A stretch of DNA of 47,468 bases from Bacteroidota bacterium. Its GTDB lineage: Bacteria > Bacteroidota > Bacteroidia > CAILMK01 > JAAYUY01. The notes under the pieces were generated by a model that had not been told where the DNA came from, ran no database searches, and was given only the letters and a program-made list of their open reading frames with translations. This document shows positions 14,585 to 24,803 of the stretch, in pieces (positions within the stretch are counted from its first letter, which is position 1; each line of letters begins with the position of its first letter). Both the position numbers and the translations under genes were made by a program. The stretch is from NCBI GenBank assembly GCA_018698135.1, contig JABINZ010000134.1:1-47468 (forward strand), written 5' to 3'.

Positions 14585-16162
14585 ATGAAATACCTAAAAT
14601 TCATTTTCCCCCTATTTATTTTATCCTTATTTGCATTCCAAACTACAGATGGTGATGATCCGGTTATTGCTAAAATCATAGAAATCGGACAAACCGACAA
14701 CCAGGCCATGGATCATTTAGATATTTTGTGCAACCGATTTGGTGGTCGACCCATTGGTTCTGACGCGTATGAAAATGCAGCAAATTGGGCTGCCTTTAAA
14801 TTCAAAGAATGGGGAATGGACGTTGAATTGGATGAAGCGGGCGAATTGCCTATCGGTTTTAACAGAGGTCCATGGTTTGGGAAAATGCTTGATGTTGATG
14901 GCTTTCATTTGCATTTTGCAACCCCGTCTTATACGGCCGGAACCAAAGGAGTGCAAAGAGGTGAAGTTTTGATTGAGCCAAAAACACAGGCTGAATTCAA
15001 CAACATAAAAGGTAAACTCAAAGGAGCCTGGGTTTTGATTACTGGTGTGAACGATGGTTTTCCGATTGATATTTCAGCCAAAGCTGACCAAATAAGAGAC
15101 TCTATTGTTGCATTAAATAAAGAAATTGATAAAGAGAACGATGTCATTCGTAGAGAAAACAGGCATAGTAAAAAACAGAAAGAGCTTCTACCCTACTATG
15201 AAGAGCCAGCTTTGTTCTACCGACAAATGGTAGAAGCTGGAATATTGGGTATTATTCAGTCATCAAAGCTTCCCATAAGGGCTATGTATGATCGAAAGAA
15301 TATCATGAGTATGACGTTTGAGAATCTGCCAAGCGTACCCGATATTAAGCTTGACGAACATCAATATAAAATCATAGAGCAGAAAGTGAAAGAAAGATTA
15401 TACTTTCAGTTAGAATTTGATATTCGCAATCATTTCAAAATGGGTCCCATTAAATATCACAATGTAATTGGCATTATTCCTGGAACCGAATTTCCAGATG
15501 AATATGTAATTATGGGTGGACATTTGGATGCTTATGATGTAGCCACCGGAGGCGTTGATGATGGTTCAGGAGCTACACCTGCCATGGAAGCGGCCCGCCT
15601 GATTATGAAAGCTGGGGGAAAACCAAAGCGGACTATTCTGGTTTGTTTATGGGCTGGAGAAGAATTTGGTTTGTTGGGTTCAACCAGTTGGATTTTGCGA
15701 AATGAAGACAAACTGGGGAAAATATCCAATATGTTTAATCGTGATGGAGGACCTGCTGTAACCACAGGAATAAGTGTAACTGAAGCCATGCTTGATGATA
15801 TGGAAAAGATTTGTGCACCACTAAACAGCATCAATCCTGAGTTCCCTTTTGAAATTAAAACCAAGGAAGCTCGTCAGCAACCGCTTAAACCATGGGGAAC
15901 TGATAGTGGTCCTTTTGCAGTTATGGGTGTTCCTACCATGACATTTAGCACAGGATATCCAAGAGGTGACAATTTCGATTATCATGAAATTTGGCATACC
16001 GAAAGGGATTTATATAATAAAAGTATACCTGATTATCAGGAGCATACAGCCATTGTTACGGCTGTAGTCGTATATGGCGTTGCTAATTTAGATCATTTGT
16101 TGGATAGAGAAGGTTATTATATCCCCTCCAAAGAAAAAGGCACATTGCAGTATTTGAAATAG
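14585..16162 (+). CDS. Exported M28-family zinc metallopeptidase
   Basis: 525 aa with an N-terminal signal peptide (hydrophobic residues 4-18, mature part near TTDGDD). A PA-like insert covers about residues 120-270. The catalytic domain has the M28 zinc ligands His313 (GGHLDAYD), Asp325/326 (GGVDDGSGA), catalytic Glu359 with Glu360 (AGEEFGLLGS), an Asp in NRDGG and a C-terminal His in HEIWHTERD. Enzymes of this type are periplasmic or outer-membrane aminopeptidases or carboxypeptidases. A link to the cyanophycin operon 250 bp upstream is not supported by its export. The last 20 codons occur again at 18479-18541, evidence of a former paralog. Confidence 0.9.
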   Translation: MKYLKFIFPLFILSLFAFQTTDGDDPVIAKIIEIGQTDNQAMDHLDILCNRFGGRPIGSDAYENAANWAAFKFKEWGMDVELDEAGELPIGFNRGPWFGKMLDVDGFHLHFATPSYTAGTKGVQRGEVLIEPKTQAEFNNIKGKLKGAWVLITGVNDGFPIDISAKADQIRDSIVALNKEIDKENDVIRRENRHSKKQKELLPYYEEPALFYRQMVEAGILGIIQSSKLPIRAMYDRKNIMSMTFENLPSVPDIKLDEHQYKIIEQKVKERLYFQLEFDIRNHFKMGPIKYHNVIGIIPGTEFPDEYVIMGGHLDAYDVATGGVDDGSGATPAMEAARLIMKAGGKPKRTILVCLWAGEEFGLLGSTSWILRNEDKLGKISNMFNRDGGPAVTTGISVTEAMLDDMEKICAPLNSINPEFPFEIKTKEARQQPLKPWGTDSGPFAVMGVPTMTFSTGYPRGDNFDYHEIWHTERDLYNKSIPDYQEHTAIVTAVVVYGVANLDHLLDREGYYIPSKEKGTLQYLK

Positions 16163-16186
16163 AAGATGGAATAACATGATTTGCTT

Positions 16187-17170
16187 TTAGAATCCAATAC
16201 CAATGCCCATAAATAAATACGATTTTTTATTATTCTTAATTTTGTATGTATCGAAATGCAACCATGTATTCTTGCCTGAACTCATTACAAGTCCAAATTT
16301 ATAGCTTATAGGGTTTTCAAATAATTGCATTTCAGAACCCAAGGGATATCCGAATTCAAAACCAAACCAATTTCCTATATTACCATACCATGGTAATGTT
16401 TTCCTTCTGAAACCTAAACAAATATGACTAGCTCCTTCAAGTTTTTCCACCGCTGAATTATAGGTACTTAATGTAGATACGGTAGAATATATAAAAATTT
16501 CGTCTTCATTTTTAACAGTCCACATATAACCAATACCTGATGTTAAAACATTGGCAATTCTGCCATTTATTATACCAAATTGAGCACTATATATGATGTC
16601 ATATACATAACTTTTATTAATCTTAAACCTATAGTTTTCTGATTTTTTGAGACTATCATTAATATACTCATAATGGAATGAATTACACCACCTGTTTCTT
16701 CTTGGCAATTCTTCCAGACTCTGATTAATTAAGCTTTGAATAGTCGTATCATTCAAATACGCTAAATCAGCAAAAAAAACATCAATTTGATAATGCCAAT
16801 CCTTAATAACTAATTTGTGAATTAATGTCTGGCTATGAAAAAGTTGATCTTTTCCCAGACTATAAATACTAGCACTTTCAGCAGCAGTAATTTTTAAAAA
16901 ATTCCCATTCACAAATTCGATAGAATAGGATGAATACACTGGAATTGAATCTTTTACTGAATTAAAAACAGTTAAAAACTGATTATAAATTGTATCAATA
17001 CTTTTAAACTGATAATCGTCAGCATAGTTTACTAAATGCATATTTAAATATACATTTTCACTATATCTAATTTGGATTAAATCATTGAATTCATTCTCTT
17101 CCTGAGCTACCACATTCAAAGTGAACAGAATAAATACGATAGAAATCAAACTTAATGCTAATGTCTTCAT
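16187..17170 (-). CDS. Hypothetical exported protein of the ECF sigma cassette
   Basis: 327 aa with a clear signal peptide (cut after VVAQ, about residue 22). The N-terminal half is mixed and the last 130 residues contain alternating strands (YDIIYSAQFGIINGR, GIGYMWTVKNE, GNWFGFEFGYPLGS) and end YLFMGIGIGF, as in outer-membrane barrels or barrel-associated proteins. It is the last of three genes after an ECF sigma factor and its presumed anti-sigma factor, 10 nt from the latter, so it is probably the envelope output of that regulator. Family not recognised. Confidence 0.7.
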   Translation of the reverse strand: MKTLALSLISIVFILFTLNVVAQEENEFNDLIQIRYSENVYLNMHLVNYADDYQFKSIDTIYNQFLTVFNSVKDSIPVYSSYSIEFVNGNFLKITAAESASIYSLGKDQLFHSQTLIHKLVIKDWHYQIDVFFADLAYLNDTTIQSLINQSLEELPRRNRWCNSFHYEYINDSLKKSENYRFKINKSYVYDIIYSAQFGIINGRIANVLTSGIGYMWTVKNEDEIFIYSTVSTLSTYNSAVEKLEGASHICLGFRRKTLPWYGNIGNWFGFEFGYPLGSEMQLFENPISYKFGLVMSSGKNTWLHFDTYKIKNNKKSYLFMGIGIGF

Positions 17171-17180
17171 TTTTAGGTTA

Positions 17181-17840
17181 TTATAATTTTATTCGTAAAG
17201 CTGAAAATTGAGCTTCTTCAGCATGTTCTGTATTAAATTTCCTTATTCTAATTCCAAACCTTACTTTTTCCTGTGGTCTGGTTTTATTTGATTTTAAATC
17301 AACCTGAAATGAGGTTGGGGTAGATGAAGTGTGAGAATTACTTGCAATAGTTTTAATCAATTCTTTTTCAATTATCACCGTATCATAAATAATATGAGTA
17401 ATAAACTGAGGTTCTTCGGTTTGATAAATACGGATAGTGTCGTATTCAATTATGTTGATTATTTCCTGGGTATTACTAATACTTCCCTCTTTTTCAATCA
17501 AATAATCATTCTCTGTCAAACTAAGCTTCAGTCCTTCATTTTCAGACTGATAAACAGCAATAATGTCCTGATTTTGATTAACCTTTGTTTTCAGTTCTTC
17601 AATCACATTAAGTAACTGGTTGGACTGAAAATCTCTGTTCAAATACAAGTAAATAGTTGAAGTAGAGAGAAATATTATCAGTAAAAGTGCGGCAATTCTA
17701 AACCACAAAAAGTTATTCTTTTTACTCAAATCAATTTTATTCCAAACATTCTCTTTTACATCTTCTGCATTTTGGGCAATAGGATATGAAGTATCCAATA
17801 TTTTTCTTAATTCGTTTTCTTTATTCTTTTTCATAATCAT
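17181..17840 (-). CDS. Membrane-anchored putative anti-sigma factor
   Basis: 219 aa with a single membrane helix at about residues 44-66 (FRIAALLLIIFLSTSTIYLYL). The N-terminal about 40 residues are cytoplasmic (ELRKILDTSYPIAQNAEDVKENVWNKID) and would hold the sigma-binding part. The periplasmic part begins with a coiled-coil-like stretch (VIEELKTKVNQNQDII) and ends basic. The gene overlaps the sigma factor gene by 20 nt, the usual arrangement for ECF sigma/anti-sigma pairs. No CHCC zinc motif, so it belongs to a non-ZAS class. Role inferred from topology and position. Confidence 0.75.
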   Translation of the reverse strand: MIMKKNKENELRKILDTSYPIAQNAEDVKENVWNKIDLSKKNNFLWFRIAALLLIIFLSTSTIYLYLNRDFQSNQLLNVIEELKTKVNQNQDIIAVYQSENEGLKLSLTENDYLIEKEGSISNTQEIINIIEYDTIRIYQTEEPQFITHIIYDTVIIEKELIKTIASNSHTSSTPTSFQVDLKSNKTRPQEKVRFGIRIRKFNTEHAEEAQFSALRIKL

Positions 17841-18366
17841 CTACTTTAACCAATTTGTTCCTGAGTTGAGTTTTAGCTCTATGCAAATGAGATTTTGATG
17901 TATTAACTGGAATTTTCAGTTTATCAGCTATTTCCTGATGTGAATATTCGTCAAGTACAAATAGATTGAATACTAGTTTTTGTGCTATTGGCAACTCGTT
18001 AATTTGTGCATATAATTTTTCACAGTCAATAGATGAATCAAAATAATCATCCAAATTTTCATCCATATAATGCTCAATCTCATCTGGATAGAAAACTATT
18101 CTTTTCTTCTCAACAAACCTGAGCGATTCATTTATGACAATAGTATTTATCCATTTATTTAAACTTCCTTCACCCCTGTTTTCAAAGGAAACTATTTTCT
18201 TAAATATTCTTGTGAATGCCAGACTCAGTATATCTTCAACATCATGGTGATTTCCAAGATACCTAAAAGCTAAATGAAAACATTGTTGATAGTATCTATC
18301 AAATAGAATTCGCTGTGCAAGTGTATTCTTTTCTTTACAATGAAATATCAGGTCAGCTTCAGTCAA
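17821..18366 (-). CDS. ECF-type RNA polymerase sigma factor
   Basis: 181 aa. Sigma region 2 covers about residues 10-75 (QRILFDRYYQQCFHLAFRYL then DVEDILSLAFTRIFKKI) and region 4 about 120-170 (LPIAQKLVFNLFVLDEYSHQ, EIADKLKIPVNTSKSHLHRA). There is no region 1 or 3, as expected for ECF factors. It directs RNA polymerase to a few promoters, probably including its own. It overlaps the putative anti-sigma gene and starts a three-gene unit. Bacteroidota ECF factors often pair with SusCD transporters, but none is adjacent here. Confidence 0.9.
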   Translation of the reverse strand: MTEADLIFHCKEKNTLAQRILFDRYYQQCFHLAFRYLGNHHDVEDILSLAFTRIFKKIVSFENRGEGSLNKWINTIVINESLRFVEKKRIVFYPDEIEHYMDENLDDYFDSSIDCEKLYAQINELPIAQKLVFNLFVLDEYSHQEIADKLKIPVNTSKSHLHRAKTQLRNKLVKVDDYEKE

Positions 18367-18478
18367 GGTTGCTTTCTTTTTTATATGAACCCTTTATATT
18401 AGAAAAAGGTTGCAGTGACAATAAAAATACTGATATTATTTATAAAAAAAGACTCTGTATAATTTCTGATAACAAATC

Positions 18479-18541
18479 TTAGATAAAGAAGGTTATTATA
18501 TCCCCTCCAAAGAAAAGGGTACATTGCAGTATTTGAAATAG
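18479..18541 (+). pseudogene. Fragment of a second M28 peptidase gene (last 20 codons)
   Basis: The stretch encodes LDKEGYYIPSKEKGTLQYLK and a TAG stop. It is identical to the end of the peptidase at 16100-16162 except for Lys in place of Arg. The few base differences are mostly in third codon positions. Upstream in the same frame there is a stop within three codons, so the rest of the gene is gone. It is best explained as the tail of a lost tandem paralog. Confidence 0.85.
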
Positions 18542-18618
18542 ATAATTCTTGAAAGTATATTAACGTATACCCTTTATTATGCTACAAACATATTTACTTA
18601 ATACCATTCATATTTAGA

Positions 18619-18665
18619 CCACTGATTCGCAGAAATTTCAATGTCTCCTGAAAACAAATCAGTGG
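18619..18665. repeat. Inverted repeat with 9-bp arms, REP-like
   Basis: CCACTGATT (18619-18627) and AATCAGTGG (18657-18665) are perfect reverse complements around a 29-nt loop. The right arm is followed by AATCTGTGG, a near copy of the 9-mer, so short units are repeated in tandem on one side. It looks like a short interspersed palindromic element; only one copy is seen in this window. Confidence 0.6.
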
Positions 18666-18719
18666 AATCTGTGGCAATTTTTACATCATAGGTACAATTG
18701 CGGATATTCAATTATAGTA

Positions 18720-19016
18720 TTATTTAGATTTCAAAAACTTGATATTACTACTTACCAATCGATAAAGAAGCATAGAAATAACAAATTGAACCAATGTTTT
18801 GTATTCGTAATCTTCCATCCTTTCATAGAATTCTTCAAATGCTCTAAATTGATGTGTAAGAATAAGAATTACTCCTAGTTGAAAAAAAATGGTTGCTATA
18901 AAAATAGTCAGATGAAGAATTAATTTAGCAAATCCTACTAATCCACTTGTGAAAAACATCGATACTTCATCTAGAAATAATCGAATTCCTTTTTGCACAA
19001 ATGATTTAATTCGCAT
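18720..19016 (-). CDS. Small hypothetical membrane protein, 98 aa
   Basis: Two hydrophobic stretches, a long one at about residues 25-55 (probably a hairpin of two short helices or one long helix) and one near 74-90, are separated by the acidic segment EEFYERMEDYEYK. Basic residues at the N-terminus suggest it faces the cytoplasm. It begins 27 nt after the stop of the LamG gene upstream on the same strand, so the two are likely cotranscribed. Family not recognised. Confidence 0.6.
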   Translation of the reverse strand: MRIKSFVQKGIRLFLDEVSMFFTSGLVGFAKLILHLTIFIATIFFQLGVILILTHQFRAFEEFYERMEDYEYKTLVQFVISMLLYRLVSSNIKFLKSK

Positions 19017-19043: not shown

Positions 19044-19979
19044 TTATTTGAAAATCAACTTTCCTGAGCCAATCAATTCCTGTTCAGAGTCAAATACTTT
19101 ATAAAAATAAACACCATTTGGTTCGGCCTTTCTATAAATTTTTGCATTTCCCATACCCAGTGCTTCATTCCTAACTTGCTGACCTAATGAATTATAGAGT
19201 TCAAAACTTAATTGATTTTGAAGCGAAGCAGAAAAGTCAATAGTAAAAGCATCTTGCACGGGATTTGGATATACATTTAACTGATCCTGAACGACATATT
19301 GTTCTTTGATTGAAGTATAAATATGGTTAACTTCAGCTGATGTTAAGCTACATCCAAACACTTTAAAATTATCTATTGAACCTTTGAAAAACTTATCATA
19401 CTTTCTACCACATCCAACACGGGTATTGGTATCACCATCCACACTTCCCGTTCCGTAAAGCATATTTCCTGAATATACCTCTTGTCCATTAAAATAGTAC
19501 TTAACATAATTCACATCTACAGTAAAAGCAATAAAATACCATGTTTCAAGAGAAATTGCTTGATTAAATTGATTGCCATCCTTACCAACATTGTATTTGA
19601 TGTTGTATTGAGTACCATCGTGGTTTACATTGATAATATTTTTGCCATAAAGCAGACTTGGATTATCATTATTAAAAATGATGGTTGTTTCCATTTTATC
19701 CTCAACATAAACCCAAAAACTAACTGATCTGTTAGGATAATCAAAAGCATTATCGAGTACAATATATTCATCCTGCCCATTGAAATGAAAAGCAGAATTA
19801 GCATCCCCAAGATATCCTTCCACAGCATCAGCACCATAATTAACAGCCTGAACCCCTTTTAGTGAATAATCATCAACATTTCCTTCAAATCGGAAATCAG
19901 CTTGCAAACAGCTATCATGTTGTGCAATTCCATACAATGATAATAGTGAGCAAATAAAGACAAGTATTAGTTTTTGCAT
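19044..19979 (-). CDS. LamG-domain protein exported by T9SS
   Basis: 311 aa. The signal peptide is MQKLILVFICSLLSLYGIAQ. A LamG/concanavalin-like lectin domain spans about residues 25-215 (ADFRFEGNVDDYS, YIVLDNAFDYPNRSVSFWVYV, GSIDNFKVFG). The last 75 residues form a type A T9SS sorting domain (LNVYPNPVQDAFTIDF, then YNSLGQQVRN, NGVYFYKVF, GSGKLIFK). The protein should be exported through the T9SS and attached to the cell surface. I chose the ATG at 19979; a start at 20021 would add 14 residues ahead of a perfect signal peptide. Ligand unknown, probably a glycan. Confidence 0.85.
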   Translation of the reverse strand: MQKLILVFICSLLSLYGIAQHDSCLQADFRFEGNVDDYSLKGVQAVNYGADAVEGYLGDANSAFHFNGQDEYIVLDNAFDYPNRSVSFWVYVEDKMETTIIFNNDNPSLLYGKNIINVNHDGTQYNIKYNVGKDGNQFNQAISLETWYFIAFTVDVNYVKYYFNGQEVYSGNMLYGTGSVDGDTNTRVGCGRKYDKFFKGSIDNFKVFGCSLTSAEVNHIYTSIKEQYVVQDQLNVYPNPVQDAFTIDFSASLQNQLSFELYNSLGQQVRNEALGMGNAKIYRKAEPNGVYFYKVFDSEQELIGSGKLIFK

Positions 19980-20097
19980 AATCCTTAATTTAAATTGAAA
20001 AGAATTTGTTTCACTAAGCAATATACGCTTTAATTACTTATTTCCAAAGAGAATTCCAGCATTGAAATTCTCAATATTCATGGAATTGGATATAAGA

Positions 20098-20730
20098 TTA
20101 CATTTTAATAAAAGTTGAGTCTTCTACTTCATCGTTTTCATATTCTCTCACATGCATTTTTTCCCTTTCCATTTCATAAATATGTTGTAATTCCACACTA
20201 TCAGGATAGGTAAGATAGTCTTCATATGCCTGGATATATTCCAAAGGAGCATTTTTATGATGATATTTCATCAAACTAACATTGGGAATATTGAATAATA
20301 CAAAAGCCACGATACCAATTGGAAGTATTCTCCTCATCAAATTCAAATAAAAATCATCTTTTGCTTTTAAAAGCTTAACTGCAGCTATAATTAAAGAAAC
20401 AAGCAAAGTAAGCAAGCCCAATTTGAGCATGATGGTCGCTCCTTTCCAGAGTTGAATTTTAAATAAGATTCCCAGTAAGAGAATGGAAAAAACCCAAGCT
20501 GTTGCAAATGTTCCGAATGCACGCCAATAATTTTCATCTTCCTTTAGCACCTTCTGATAAGCCGCTTTGATAGGCAATTCGCTACATAAAGGCAATAATG
20601 CAAATAAATAGAAAATAGCTAAAGCCTGAAATCCCAATACATGCAAAATTCCTCCACCCGGAATATGCAAAACTTTTAATAGGGCACCAAGCAAAATAAG
20701 TAAGACGAAGCCGAGTTCTGTTTTTTTCAT
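20098..20730 (-). CDS. GldL-like multi-helix membrane protein
   Basis: 210 aa with about six membrane helices. Two copies of a short motif are visible: GALLKVLHIPGGGILHVLGF near residue 15 and GILFKIQLWKGATIMLKLG near residue 86. Both resemble the GldL helix motif also seen at 2574-3098. The C-terminal 50 residues are hydrophilic and acidic. It lies between two T9SS-exported LamG proteins, 17 nt after the large one, so it is probably cotranscribed and may serve their export or anchoring. It is not a GldL ortholog by length or by context. Confidence 0.7.
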   Translation of the reverse strand: MKKTELGFVLLILLGALLKVLHIPGGGILHVLGFQALAIFYLFALLPLCSELPIKAAYQKVLKEDENYWRAFGTFATAWVFSILLLGILFKIQLWKGATIMLKLGLLTLLVSLIIAAVKLLKAKDDFYLNLMRRILPIGIVAFVLFNIPNVSLMKYHHKNAPLEYIQAYEDYLTYPDSVELQHIYEMEREKMHVREYENDEVEDSTFIKM

Positions 20731-20747
20731 TTTAATCGTGTTTTATT

Positions 20748-23700
20748 TTATTGAACAAATAGTTTATTATTGACCAGTAAATTGCTTGACTGTATCCGCA
20801 CAAAGTAAATAGCTTGTGGTTCCTGAACCGTGTAAGAATATTCACCTTTAACAAAATCTTTAACTAATTCCTTACCAATTGCATTATAAATGGTTAAAGT
20901 TAGCGCTTCACTTGTTTTTGAAATGATGTGAATTTTGCCATTCTCAGACCAAATTTTGAGATCGTCATTTGGGTTTTCACTAATTGCATTATTTAAAGTA
21001 TAAAAGGTAGAATCTGCACCATAAGCTTCGCCATGATCACATTTAGCAACTAGTCGATAATGATACTCCCTATTGCTGGTTAAAGCGCTAAGTGTTGTGC
21101 TAATATTTTCATCAACACTGGTGGTTATATTATTGGGTATGCCAGCAGAATTTCTTCCATAAGCTGTTGTTAATCCATATTCAAAATAAACATTGGTTAA
21201 AACTCCTTTGGCATTCACAATTCCCGATAACTCAACACCATCGATGGTCGAATTGGTTGGGGCTCCAGTAACAGCCGTTGGTGGTGTAATTTCAAAACTT
21301 CTTTCATTACCGTATGCTGTATCTACATCATTAATAGCATAAGCTCGTACGTAATAAATTGTATTGGCTTGCAAGCCTGTTATGCTGGATGCAAAGGTTC
21401 CCAATCCGGCTCCATCATTCGTTTTTGTTGATAAGGCAACTGTTGGGTTTGGGTTTGAACTCCAGCAAATACCTCTCAATAGTACTGGCATTCTTCCATC
21501 ATCAGTTACATTTCCTCCACAATCTGCAGAAGAAGACATGATGTTGCTTATACTGGCAGTGGTTATACTTGGTTTATCGGCTGTTGTAAATGTGCTGTCG
21601 CCTCCATAAGCTATTCCTACAGTATTGATGGCATAGGCTCTGACATGATAGGTGGTATTGGCCAATAGGCCTGTGATCAGACTACCAAATGTTCCTAATC
21701 CGCTTCCTTCAATATTTTTGGTCGTTAAGCCTGTTGATGGGTTTGGATATTTACTCCAAACAACCCCCCTTTCAGTAACATTCGTTCCGGAAACTACCTC
21801 ACCATTTACTTTTGCAGTATAACCGCTTATTAATTCAATTCCGCTGGTAATAACTTCAGGAGCACTGGGTGTCAGAAAATTAATTTCTTGTCCATAAGCA
21901 GTGTCCATTGAATTGATAGCATATGCTTTTACATAATAAGTAGTATTAGCAGAAAGGCCACTTAAAGCACTGTTATAGTGTCCTAAACCGTATCCATCAG
22001 TAGTTTTAGTCGATAAATTGGCCGTTGGATTCGGAACATTACTCCAACAAACACCCCTTCTGATTACTGCTGCTCCACCATCATCCGTTACGGTGCCTCC
22101 GCATTGAGCTGTTCCTGCCCCTATATTGCTTATTGCATCGGTAACTACAGTAGGAGCTCCCAAGGTAGTAAAGCTACTATCTCCACCATAAGATGTGTCA
22201 ATGTTGTTTATCGCATAAGCACGAACATGATAAAGAGTTCCTTTGGCAAGATTAATCATGGTTCCGTTAAAAGTACCTGTACCTGATCCCAAGGTCAATT
22301 TTACACCAGTTACAATTGTTGGATTAGCGGATGTACTCCAACATAAACCTCGTTCAGTTACAGGAGTTCCACCATCAGAAATAACTATTCCACCACATAA
22401 TGCAGAAGTAGCAAGCACATTAACCACTTTTTTAGTGGTCACAACTGAGGCAACAGTAGCGACTGTTGTGAAAATACTATCCGCACTATATGAAGTATCC
22501 ACATCATTAATGGCAAAAGCCCGTGTGTGGTAAATCGTGTTTGGAAACAAGTTTACTAAATTGCAATTAACGACACCAGTTGCCCCTGCTTTAATCACGG
22601 CTGAAGCACTTAAATCAGGATTTGAACTCAATCCTAAACAAATCCCTCTTGATGTAATGGGCATTCTTCCATCGCTGGTTACATTAATTTTTACTGTTGC
22701 TGTATAATAGGTGATTGCACTTATTTGATCAATTTGAACTTCGGGATGTGTAGCCGTAAGAATAACACTATCGGCTCCATAGGCTGTACCAACAGAATTA
22801 GTTGCATATGCACGTGCATAATAGGTTGTATTTGCTTGTAAATTTGTGAGTGAACTCGCAAAATTACCAATTCCACCACCTTCAGTTGTTTTAGTAGTTA
22901 ACGCTATAGTGGGATTTGCAGAAGTTCCCCAAACAATTCCTTTTTGACTTACTGCACGTCTACCATCAAAAGTACATCCTCCACTAACTGTTGCAGTATA
23001 TCCGGTAATAGCTGATAATCCTCCTGTAAATACATCAGGAACTGAAATAGGCAAAGTAGTGAAACTACTATCTGCCCCATAAGACGTATCAACTGCATTG
23101 ATTGCATAGGCTCTGTAATGGTATTGACTATTCGGTGTGAGTCCACTTATCATAGCTGTAAAATAACCTTCTCCACTTCCCTTAATTACTTTAGTACTTA
23201 AATTGGCTTTTGGATTCGCAGAGCTACTCCAACAAATACCCCTTTCCGTAACATTAACATCTCCATCAGAAACCACTGTACCTGCCACCAAAGCTGAATC
23301 TGTAAATAAACTAAGCGTTCCATCAGTTGTTACTGTAGGTGCATATGGTGTTGGAGTGGTGAACGTACTATCTGAACCATAAACAGTATCTTTGGTATTA
23401 TAGGCATAAGCACGCACATGATAGGTCGTATTTGCAGTTAGATTGCTAAGATTAGCTGTATACAATCCGTTCCCGGTTCCATTTGCGGTTTTGCTGTCAG
23501 CAATATCAGGATTAACATTCGTTGACCAACAAATTCCACGATTGGTTTGAAGGCCACCATCATCAAGCACTTTTCCTCTTATTTTAGCTGAATAAGCTTT
23601 CACCTCTTCAATTAAGTTTGTTTCAACTGTTGGCCCCTGATAATCGTAAGCTCCAAAACAATAATAAAAAGAATCCTGAAATGAAATATTGTTATATACA

Positions 23701-24803
23701 ATTTGATGATTTCCAATTTTGTTACCAGAAATGACCGATGCATTGCTAAAATTCGTATCAGATGACACTAATAATTTGAAAGTATAAAATCCATTTGTAT
23801 CTAAATTAGCGTAGTCAAGTTTAATCGATCCGCTTAGCGATCCCTCTTTTTCCAATCTCCAAATCCGACCCAGCCTTTTTTGGATATAACTGGGTTTATT
23901 AGTGATGTTGTAACTCAAACTGTTTCCATTGTGTCCAAAAACAACGTAGGTGTTTCCTGACATATTATCACTTACTTCAAAAACGGAGGAAGATGCTGTT
24001 GACCATACTGGCCAGACTGCATTCAAATCGTGTAAAAAATTGGAAGGTGTAGACGCCATTGGAACATAGGAGCTTTGCCATGGAGAAGCTGCAAAATTTG
24101 TTAAAGTAGCGTCAAAACTATTTCCACTTGAATCATAAGCGGTAGTTCCTGTTCCCGCATTCATTTTGTAATAACTTACTAAATTAGAGCTACTTGGATG
24201 AGCTGAGCTAATTGGTTTATTCATCCATTTTCTCATTGTGGTGGTATCCAATGCAACATTCCATAATCGAACTTCATCGATTTTACCATCAAAAACTCTA
24301 TTTCCCAATTGCCCCGTGCAATCTCCAATAATCATTTTCTCCATTGTAGAGTAACGAATTCCGCCTGTATTGGCTATTGTTTTTACTAAAACACCATTTA
24401 TATATACTTTTTGGTTTGATCCATCATATGTTCCTGCAACATGATACCACTTTCCTGTACTCATTAATTGAGCGGACATACATTCTACCCATGCTCCAGT
24501 GCTGCCATTTGCTGCTAAAAGTGTAAGTCTCCCATTGTCTCCTGTTCGTAAATCCCAACCTCGTTGACCACCAGTTCCTGACCACGAATCAGTACTTAAA
24601 ATGGTCCCTTGCCAATTATTTGAACGCCATGTATCTGCATAAATCCAGGCTTCAATAGTTAATTGAGCAGGACGAAATGAACTACTCGTATCGCAATCTA
24701 CATAATCGTTTGATCCATCAAAATCAAGAGCTGTTCCTGCATTTTGAGAAAAACCAATTGTTGCTAATAAGGAAAATGAAAGTATGTATGTAATTATTCT
24801 CAT
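20748..24803 (-). CDS. Large T9SS-exported LamG / Fn3-like repeat surface protein
   Basis: 1351 aa. Order of parts: signal peptide (MRIITYILSFSLLATIGFSQ), LamG lectin domain (about 25-215), a linker domain (about 220-390), eight tandem repeats of about 85-90 residues and a ninth, diverged one, and a T9SS type A sorting domain (last about 75 residues). Each repeat holds a Gly-Ile-Cys/Val-Trp-Ser...Asn-Pro core and ends YHVRAYAINxxDTxYGxDSxFTT-like, resembling Fn3 beta-sandwiches. It is probably a long surface adhesin or glycan-binding stalk. Start taken at ATG 24803 because the signal peptide begins there. No catalytic motif. Confidence 0.9.
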   Translation of the reverse strand: MRIITYILSFSLLATIGFSQNAGTALDFDGSNDYVDCDTSSSFRPAQLTIEAWIYADTWRSNNWQGTILSTDSWSGTGGQRGWDLRTGDNGRLTLLAANGSTGAWVECMSAQLMSTGKWYHVAGTYDGSNQKVYINGVLVKTIANTGGIRYSTMEKMIIGDCTGQLGNRVFDGKIDEVRLWNVALDTTTMRKWMNKPISSAHPSSSNLVSYYKMNAGTGTTAYDSSGNSFDATLTNFAASPWQSSYVPMASTPSNFLHDLNAVWPVWSTASSSVFEVSDNMSGNTYVVFGHNGNSLSYNITNKPSYIQKRLGRIWRLEKEGSLSGSIKLDYANLDTNGFYTFKLLVSSDTNFSNASVISGNKIGNHQIVYNNISFQDSFYYCFGAYDYQGPTVETNLIEEVKAYSAKIRGKVLDDGGLQTNRGICWSTNVNPDIADSKTANGTGNGLYTANLSNLTANTTYHVRAYAYNTKDTVYGSDSTFTTPTPYAPTVTTDGTLSLFTDSALVAGTVVSDGDVNVTERGICWSSSANPKANLSTKVIKGSGEGYFTAMISGLTPNSQYHYRAYAINAVDTSYGADSSFTTLPISVPDVFTGGLSAITGYTATVSGGCTFDGRRAVSQKGIVWGTSANPTIALTTKTTEGGGIGNFASSLTNLQANTTYYARAYATNSVGTAYGADSVILTATHPEVQIDQISAITYYTATVKINVTSDGRMPITSRGICLGLSSNPDLSASAVIKAGATGVVNCNLVNLFPNTIYHTRAFAINDVDTSYSADSIFTTVATVASVVTTKKVVNVLATSALCGGIVISDGGTPVTERGLCWSTSANPTIVTGVKLTLGSGTGTFNGTMINLAKGTLYHVRAYAINNIDTSYGGDSSFTTLGAPTVVTDAISNIGAGTAQCGGTVTDDGGAAVIRRGVCWSNVPNPTANLSTKTTDGYGLGHYNSALSGLSANTTYYVKAYAINSMDTAYGQEINFLTPSAPEVITSGIELISGYTAKVNGEVVSGTNVTERGVVWSKYPNPSTGLTTKNIEGSGLGTFGSLITGLLANTTYHVRAYAINTVGIAYGGDSTFTTADKPSITTASISNIMSSSADCGGNVTDDGRMPVLLRGICWSSNPNPTVALSTKTNDGAGLGTFASSITGLQANTIYYVRAYAINDVDTAYGNERSFEITPPTAVTGAPTNSTIDGVELSGIVNAKGVLTNVYFEYGLTTAYGRNSAGIPNNITTSVDENISTTLSALTSNREYHYRLVAKCDHGEAYGADSTFYTLNNAISENPNDDLKIWSENGKIHIISKTSEALTLTIYNAIGKELVKDFVKGEYSYTVQEPQAIYFVRIQSSNLLVNNKLFVQ

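Follow-up and report, generated by a model that had tools for sequence, protein, structure and literature searches.

The stretch of DNA analyzed here (the window) covers all 47,468 nt of contig JABINZ010000134.1 in assembly GCA_018698135.1 of a Bacteroidota bacterium. It contains a small sigma-factor cassette lying between two copies of the 3′ end of a peptidase gene. The intact peptidase gene (14585–16162, plus strand) encodes 525 aa, and the Pfam domain Peptidase_M28 (PF04389, E = 8.4e-27) spans residues 293–490, which places the product in the M28 family. The final 63 nt of the gene are repeated at 18479–18541, and the next base extends the match to 64 nt. The gene-linked copy (16100–16163, plus strand; the last 20 codons, the stop codon, and 1 nt) and the downstream copy, or orphan (18479–18542, plus strand), are identical at 60 of 64 positions. 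The match is not due to chance, because the orphan used as query against its own genome finds the gene-linked copy with E = 1.8e-21; that search lists these two places only. In a protein search, the orphan corresponds to residues 504–525 of the peptidase and to nothing more of it. The four differences are TTG to TTA, AGA to AAA (Arg to Lys), AAA to AAG, and GGC to GGT, all of them transitions, with three silent and one replacement.

The 2.3 kb between the two copies are occupied by three genes on the minus strand. The first encodes a sigma factor of 181 aa with a TTG start (17821–18366, minus strand), with the Pfam domains Sigma70_r2 (E = 3.5e-10) and Sigma70_r4_2 (E = 3.9e-15) and a match to TIGR02937 above the cut-off. 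With regions 2 and 4 but without region 3, it belongs to the extracytoplasmic function (ECF) group. The second is a putative membrane anti-sigma gene (17181–17840, minus strand, 219 aa), so called from its single membrane span at residues 49–67 and from the gene order. The third encodes 327 aa (16187–17170, minus strand) with a signal-like N-terminus (hydrophobic stretch at residues 4–22); it is an orphan protein, possibly of the outer membrane. Neither of the last two proteins has a Pfam or NCBIfam family. The sigma and 219-aa genes share a 20-nt overlap, with the 327-aa gene beginning 10 nt beyond, so the three genes look like one operon. Neither a transposase nor an integrase gene is present between the copies, as judged from the open reading frames (ORFs) and Pfam. 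An earlier note on this DNA had reported the recurrence of the last 20 codons with one Arg-to-Lys change, the three-gene sigma unit on the opposite strand, and no evident transposase, and on these points, coordinates included, it was right. It had also called the differences mostly silent; this is so for three of the four, but four differences are all that the window offers and it is the pooled pairs from other genes (below) that carry the claim.

To the right, directly after the orphan, starts a copy (18546–18725, plus strand) of a dispersed intergenic repeat of ~150–165 bp, with at least 38 other matches in the same genome (from 40 of 113 candidates scored; 30 copies were aligned), clustered on contigs C254, C249, C112, and C3. 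Because this own-genome repeat adjoins the orphan, the DNA to the right of the orphan is taken as native. The repeat was considered as a cause of the arrangement, but its copies have unrelated flanks and we take it as a mere neighbor. Beyond it lie a 98-aa ORF with a hydrophobic span and no Pfam or NCBIfam family (18720–19016, minus strand) and a gene for a LamG/Por secretion-tail protein (19044–20021, minus strand; Pfam Laminin_G_3 and Por_Secre_tail). The one other genome of the genus examined, G001, has a single ortholog position for the peptidase (81% identical in the genome comparison), and there the gene directly adjoins the LamG ortholog (54% identical). At that site, the cassette, the orphan fragment, and the 98-aa ORF are all absent, and the dispersed repeat does not occur in the three stretches of G001 compared.

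The same arrangement is found at other genes of this genome. The draft assembly comprises 287 contigs, and the scan covered 1.50 Mb of it (~36%), divided into 78 pieces that contain 1,124 ORFs of ≥100 aa; the pieces are not a random sample, as some were picked for matches to the dispersed repeat, the sigma factor, or the M28 peptidase. A first scan of 447 kb had given two further cases on one contig and was later widened. In total, six genes are accompanied by an orphan of their own 3′ end, and each has long direct repeats of the target on both sides of the insert, seen at the DNA level in the window and at four other genes and, for PPDK, when these pieces were scanned at the protein level. 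Besides the window peptidase, they are a 440-aa M28 peptidase, M28-440 (145-bp repeat, 90%), with a glutathione peroxidase gene between the copies; an RNase H gene (57 bp, 88%) with an IS200-like transposase gene; a DEAD helicase gene (169 bp, 96%) with 663 bp holding no clear gene; a SNF2 helicase gene (150 bp, 88%) with an 84-aa ORF of no family and a ParE-type toxin gene just beyond; and PPDK, with the tail repeated 333 bp on. The RNase H case is absent from the results of the protein-level scan. In all six cases, the orphan lies downstream from its gene and in the same direction. The tails differ by 4%–12% between copies, and the inserts measure from ~0.3 to 2.3 kb and have no common content. 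After the exclusions detailed below, no equivalent at the 5′ end of a credible gene was left in the own-genome scan. This recurrence, like the dispersed repeat after the orphan, goes beyond the earlier note.

Comparable cases occur in two other assemblies. In G001 (432 kb, 346 ORFs), one was found: an M24 aminopeptidase gene followed by an aminotransferase gene and then by the 3′ portion of the aminopeptidase again, with part of it deleted (L033, G001 contig C114, 4147–7007); it adjoins an extra copy of the M28 peptidase. Among distant relatives (77 loci, 0.999 Mb, 835 ORFs), the one case is in a Prevotellaceae assembly (L105, 6991–11111), with an M28 gene, an ATPase gene, and then an 81% identical fragment of the gene's own 3′ portion. 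Both are looser than the six, since the repeats stop short of the stop codon in long matches, and the loci had been chosen for the peptidase.

These observations bear on the history proposed in the earlier note, a tandem peptidase pair whose second copy was for the most part deleted or replaced on the arrival of the cassette. Silent-biased divergence between the copies would also suit two paralogs, and G001 does carry three close copies of the M28 peptidase. These copies are, however, dispersed, the two further ones being on other contigs. At the 80 peptidase loci kept of the 104 found, many of which are short contigs, no second full-length peptidase gene is present; two of the 80 (L048 and L056) have a weak partial M28-like match (25%–31%). 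In the 1.50 Mb of the genome itself, no full-length tandem pair at ≥70% protein identity within 15 kb was found. Moreover, the scar recurs at other genes, always at the 3′ end, and PPDK and two helicases are in our judgment unlikely members of tandem pairs. We regard a decayed tandem pair as quite unlikely here, and as less likely than the uptake of DNA from a relative; a pair may have existed in a lost donor or ancestor. The earlier note had expected relatives with two adjacent peptidase genes and no cassette; the 80 loci gave no such adjacent full-length pair, and what G001 shows is the peptidase–LamG arrangement without the cassette. The tandem-pair history is not supported; the interpretation given there holds in part, through its claim on a working gene (below).

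Another possibility is a site-specific integrase acting at gene 3′ ends, with the tail of the element restoring the gene and the integrase since lost or acting in trans. There are well-known integrative elements whose insertion leaves the target gene with a restored 3′ end, and the geometry here is the same. The cassette, however, contains no integrase, and the six gene-linked repeats share no common 9-mer, which argues against one recombinase with a fixed core acting on six different targets; the variable inserts without common content argue in the same direction. The combination of an integrase gene and a common core site, which would characterize an integrase-borne genomic island, is absent, and we consider this explanation improbable.

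The differences between copies were then sorted by codon, with segments left untrimmed so that codons at the repeat edges are included. The five pairs found by DNA have together 19 silent and 12 replacement codons (silent fraction 0.61), namely 3/1 in the window, 4/3 in M28-440, 4/3 in RNase H, 2/5 in the DEAD helicase, and 6/0 in SNF2; the PPDK pair has seven silent and no replacement codons. Decay was simulated under three transition biases, with 300 runs for each. When the orphan alone decays neutrally, the mean silent fraction is 0.21–0.29 and 0.61 is never reached; decay of the orphan together with a constrained gene gives 0.34–0.42 (P ≤ 0.017); with both copies constrained, P is 0.90–0.98. 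The three further segments from G001 and L105 (15 silent, 11 replacement) have the same outcome, driven by L105 (11/4). Because the pooled differences are too often silent for decay after duplication, the pooled pairs support a divergence of the two copies as working genes. The earlier note had claimed that the fragment evolved in a working gene before it was broken, and the pooled pairs and PPDK bear this out, the window pair alone being too small.

This silent excess also speaks against an insertion with long target duplication, in which an unrecognized mobility process would duplicate ~55–170 bp of the target and the two copies, identical at first, would then diverge. Such insertions have been described in Helicobacter pylori, where genes are inserted with long target duplications (Nobusato 2000, as reported in the relevant passages of PMC3031569, PMC1643837, and PMC4978471). 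The resemblance is close, with inserted genes lying between long direct repeats of variable length, here 57–169 bp around unrelated inserts. One insert holds an IS200-like transposase gene and another adjoins a ParE-type toxin gene, and the polarity of the window differences, read by eye, fits decay of the orphan. There are also differences: according to those passages, the H. pylori inserts are mainly restriction–modification genes, whereas here they comprise a sigma operon, a glutathione peroxidase gene, a transposase gene, small ORFs, or no gene, and the divergence of the repeats is silent-biased. If duplication is taken to mean repeats identical at insertion with random later changes, which is our own reading of the term in those citing papers, the pooled silent excess departs from it: it rejects an identical start followed by decay, and in PPDK, all seven differences are silent. 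We hold this explanation to be rather unlikely.

The reading that we favor is that the orphan is the original 3′ end of the recipient's peptidase gene, left behind by a homology-anchored uptake of DNA from a relative; we give it an even chance of being correct. It is applied to the observed repeat, cassette, empty arrangement in the congener, recurrence at other genes, and pooled silent-biased divergence. A related strain, already diverged, would have supplied DNA with its own peptidase gene followed by the sigma cassette, and this DNA would have entered the cell, with the donor, the direction of transfer, and the route of entry being part of the proposal. The peptidase gene would have served as the homology anchor along which the incoming DNA paired with the chromosome, and the far end of this DNA would have been joined illegitimately to the chromosome at a presumed joint ~60 nt before the recipient stop codon. 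The product would read, in order, peptidase gene with the donor tail, cassette, old recipient tail, and old downstream DNA. A diverged allele, passenger DNA, and an old tail are together what a one-sided pairing with illegitimate joining would leave, and a diverged donor and a single recombination event suffice to explain the silent differences as well as the cassette. The five other scars of this genome would have been made by the same kind of event. The survivors would mostly be events that spare the gene and its promoter, and for this reason, 3′ ends alone would be seen.

The direction of the changes was read by eye from alignments with G001. Of the five usable sites in M28-440, the gene has the derived state at three and the orphan at two; of the five in SNF2, the gene has it at two and the orphan at three. 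With the window included, the three genes give five derived changes on the gene side and eight on the orphan side. Derived changes on both sides fit two alleles, although the numbers are small. Alleles ~8% apart, within the 4%–12% range of the tails, are present in this assembly at two contig ends. At these ends (L165 on contig C180, 1–508, and L276 on contig C105, 1–508), the tail of a glycosyltransferase-like gene, 92% identical between the two, precedes the first part of a 281-aa gene whose product has a penicillin-binding transpeptidase domain; they may be strain variants or another tail scar. Such alleles, in a draft of so many contigs, also raise the question of an artefact in which the assembler joined strain variants of a gene tail. 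Yet the junction between the cassette and the orphan is continuous and without N, the six cases have different inserts, and similar cases occur in two other assemblies, so that an artefact seems very improbable.

Several observations weigh against uptake from a diverged relative. In the window, the orphan carries the derived state at each of the three usable sites, which is the pattern expected of simple decay. Neither the DEAD helicase pair (two silent, five replacement) nor the aminopeptidase pair of G001 (four silent, seven replacement) has a silent excess by itself. In PPDK, the coding tail differs silently and the noncoding tail is nearly identical, which plain divergence of alleles does not predict. 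Two of the cases are not simple insertions once G001 is taken for comparison: in that genome, 12.5 kb separate the glutathione peroxidase region from the peptidase, and at the RNase H site, the RNase H gene itself is missing. Finally, neither a donor nor a near strain was found; the cassette lies beside the peptidase, as it would in the donor, at none of the 80 loci (four have a 25%–31% identical sigma match without the partner genes), an absence that is weak since the sample contains no near strain. Of the two remaining comparisons with G001, the toxin region of the SNF2 case is also extra DNA, and no ortholog was found in G001 for the DEAD helicase case.

The proposed uptake resembles two processes already described, the insertion with long target duplication discussed above and homology-facilitated illegitimate recombination. 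The latter is known in Acinetobacter, Pseudomonas stutzeri, and Streptococcus pneumoniae, and has been proposed for the type VI secretion arrays of Vibrio (passages in PMC5361080; see also PMC3240628). In the accounts given there, as here, an anchor gene is followed by new DNA and, farther downstream, by the displaced older 3′ end; a mobile element is not required and the copies are diverged alleles. The anchors in Vibrio are, in those accounts, toxin effectors, whereas here they are ordinary enzyme genes known from sequence alone. As for two marks of that process, an insert with one end homologous to the recipient and diverged like an allele is indicated by the pooled silent bias, the window pair being too small by itself, and a donor strain with the gene and the insert adjacent is found at none of the 80 loci.

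In a broader form, which we offer tentatively and are inclined to doubt, orphan 3′ tails would be a readable, genome-wide scar of uptake anchored in ordinary genes, and reported long target duplications may be donor and recipient alleles. If this is true, counts of such tails together with the silent-change test would measure gene gain by one-sided homologous recombination without a mobile element. The leftover tail would tell which genes arrived, which gene served as anchor, and how diverged the donor was, even in metagenome-assembled genomes. Operons of small size, for example a sigma factor and its regulator, could then spread without transposases or integrases.

The exclusions in the scans were as follows. 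The DNA scan of the genome gave 14 rows, of which five were kept; seven of the others come from a single ORF of 110 aa, itself doubtful, within a repeat array of contig C114 (two of them labeled 3′ end outside), and the remainder are an internal 44-nt match (C202) and an internal match with four copies (L228). The array (L163, own contig C114, ~20000–23900) consists of several imperfect repeats of 40–200 bp without credible genes. The protein scan gave eight rows, five of them kept, the three excluded being from the same doubtful ORF. An earlier scan of the genome had also excluded short repeat ORFs (L163, L206, and L223; some at the 5′ end) and a coding pair (L227). In G001, three of the five DNA rows were excluded as 5′-end rows of a repeat with five to seven copies in its contig C15 (one labeled outside), and one N-terminal row of the protein scan came from the ORF of that same repeat. 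The DNA scan of the relatives gave two rows, one of which, an internal match of 58 identical nt within an ORF of doubtful status (L096), was excluded; the 77 loci are the 80 without L034, L049, and L053, all of G001 itself. A stricter first scan of the 80 loci had given no case, its seven rows including an internal coding repeat (L102) and the 5′ ends of paralogs (L112). The PPDK repeat lies on own contig C121 (L214, ~400–1100), where a unit of ~333 bp is repeated downstream from the gene.

Other candidates for the origin of the cassette were tried and set aside. No RNA or tRNA gene that could have served as an integration target is present in the window. A low G + C content is weak as proof of foreign origin, as the cassette has 29.1% against 34.2% for the window but third-position values overlap those of neighboring genes. 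An origin from a plasmid or phage is unsupported, with no match of the 327-aa protein in plasmids or phages; the best matches of the sigma protein are 34% identical in plasmids and 31% in phages. On viral contigs, 19 pattern matches to the 327-aa protein yielded no relatives, and a single-sequence structure model of it (mean pLDDT 34.4) was not used.

Among 12 genomes of the order, the 219-aa and 327-aa proteins are found in this genome only, and the 327-aa protein is likewise confined to it among 395 genomes of the phylum. In the same phylum sample, the sigma factor has homologs at E ≤ 1e-33 in four other genomes (38%–41% identity). Each of the four has, after the sigma gene, a gene for a protein of 225–245 aa and then one for a protein of 322–364 aa, and the cassette has the same layout of sigma factor, putative membrane anti-sigma, and third, presumably secreted protein as these Bacteroidota ECF operons. 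The 327-aa protein itself has no significant similarity to one of the third proteins (BLASTP E = 0.57) and is 19%–22% identical to the four in forced alignment, and its homology with the third genes of similar operons is unsupported. In ECF systems in general, a membrane anti-sigma holds the sigma factor until a signal arrives. From this and from the anatomy of the cassette, the unit is most likely an envelope-signal switch, in which the putative anti-sigma would hold the sigma factor and a signal would free it to transcribe its own operon.

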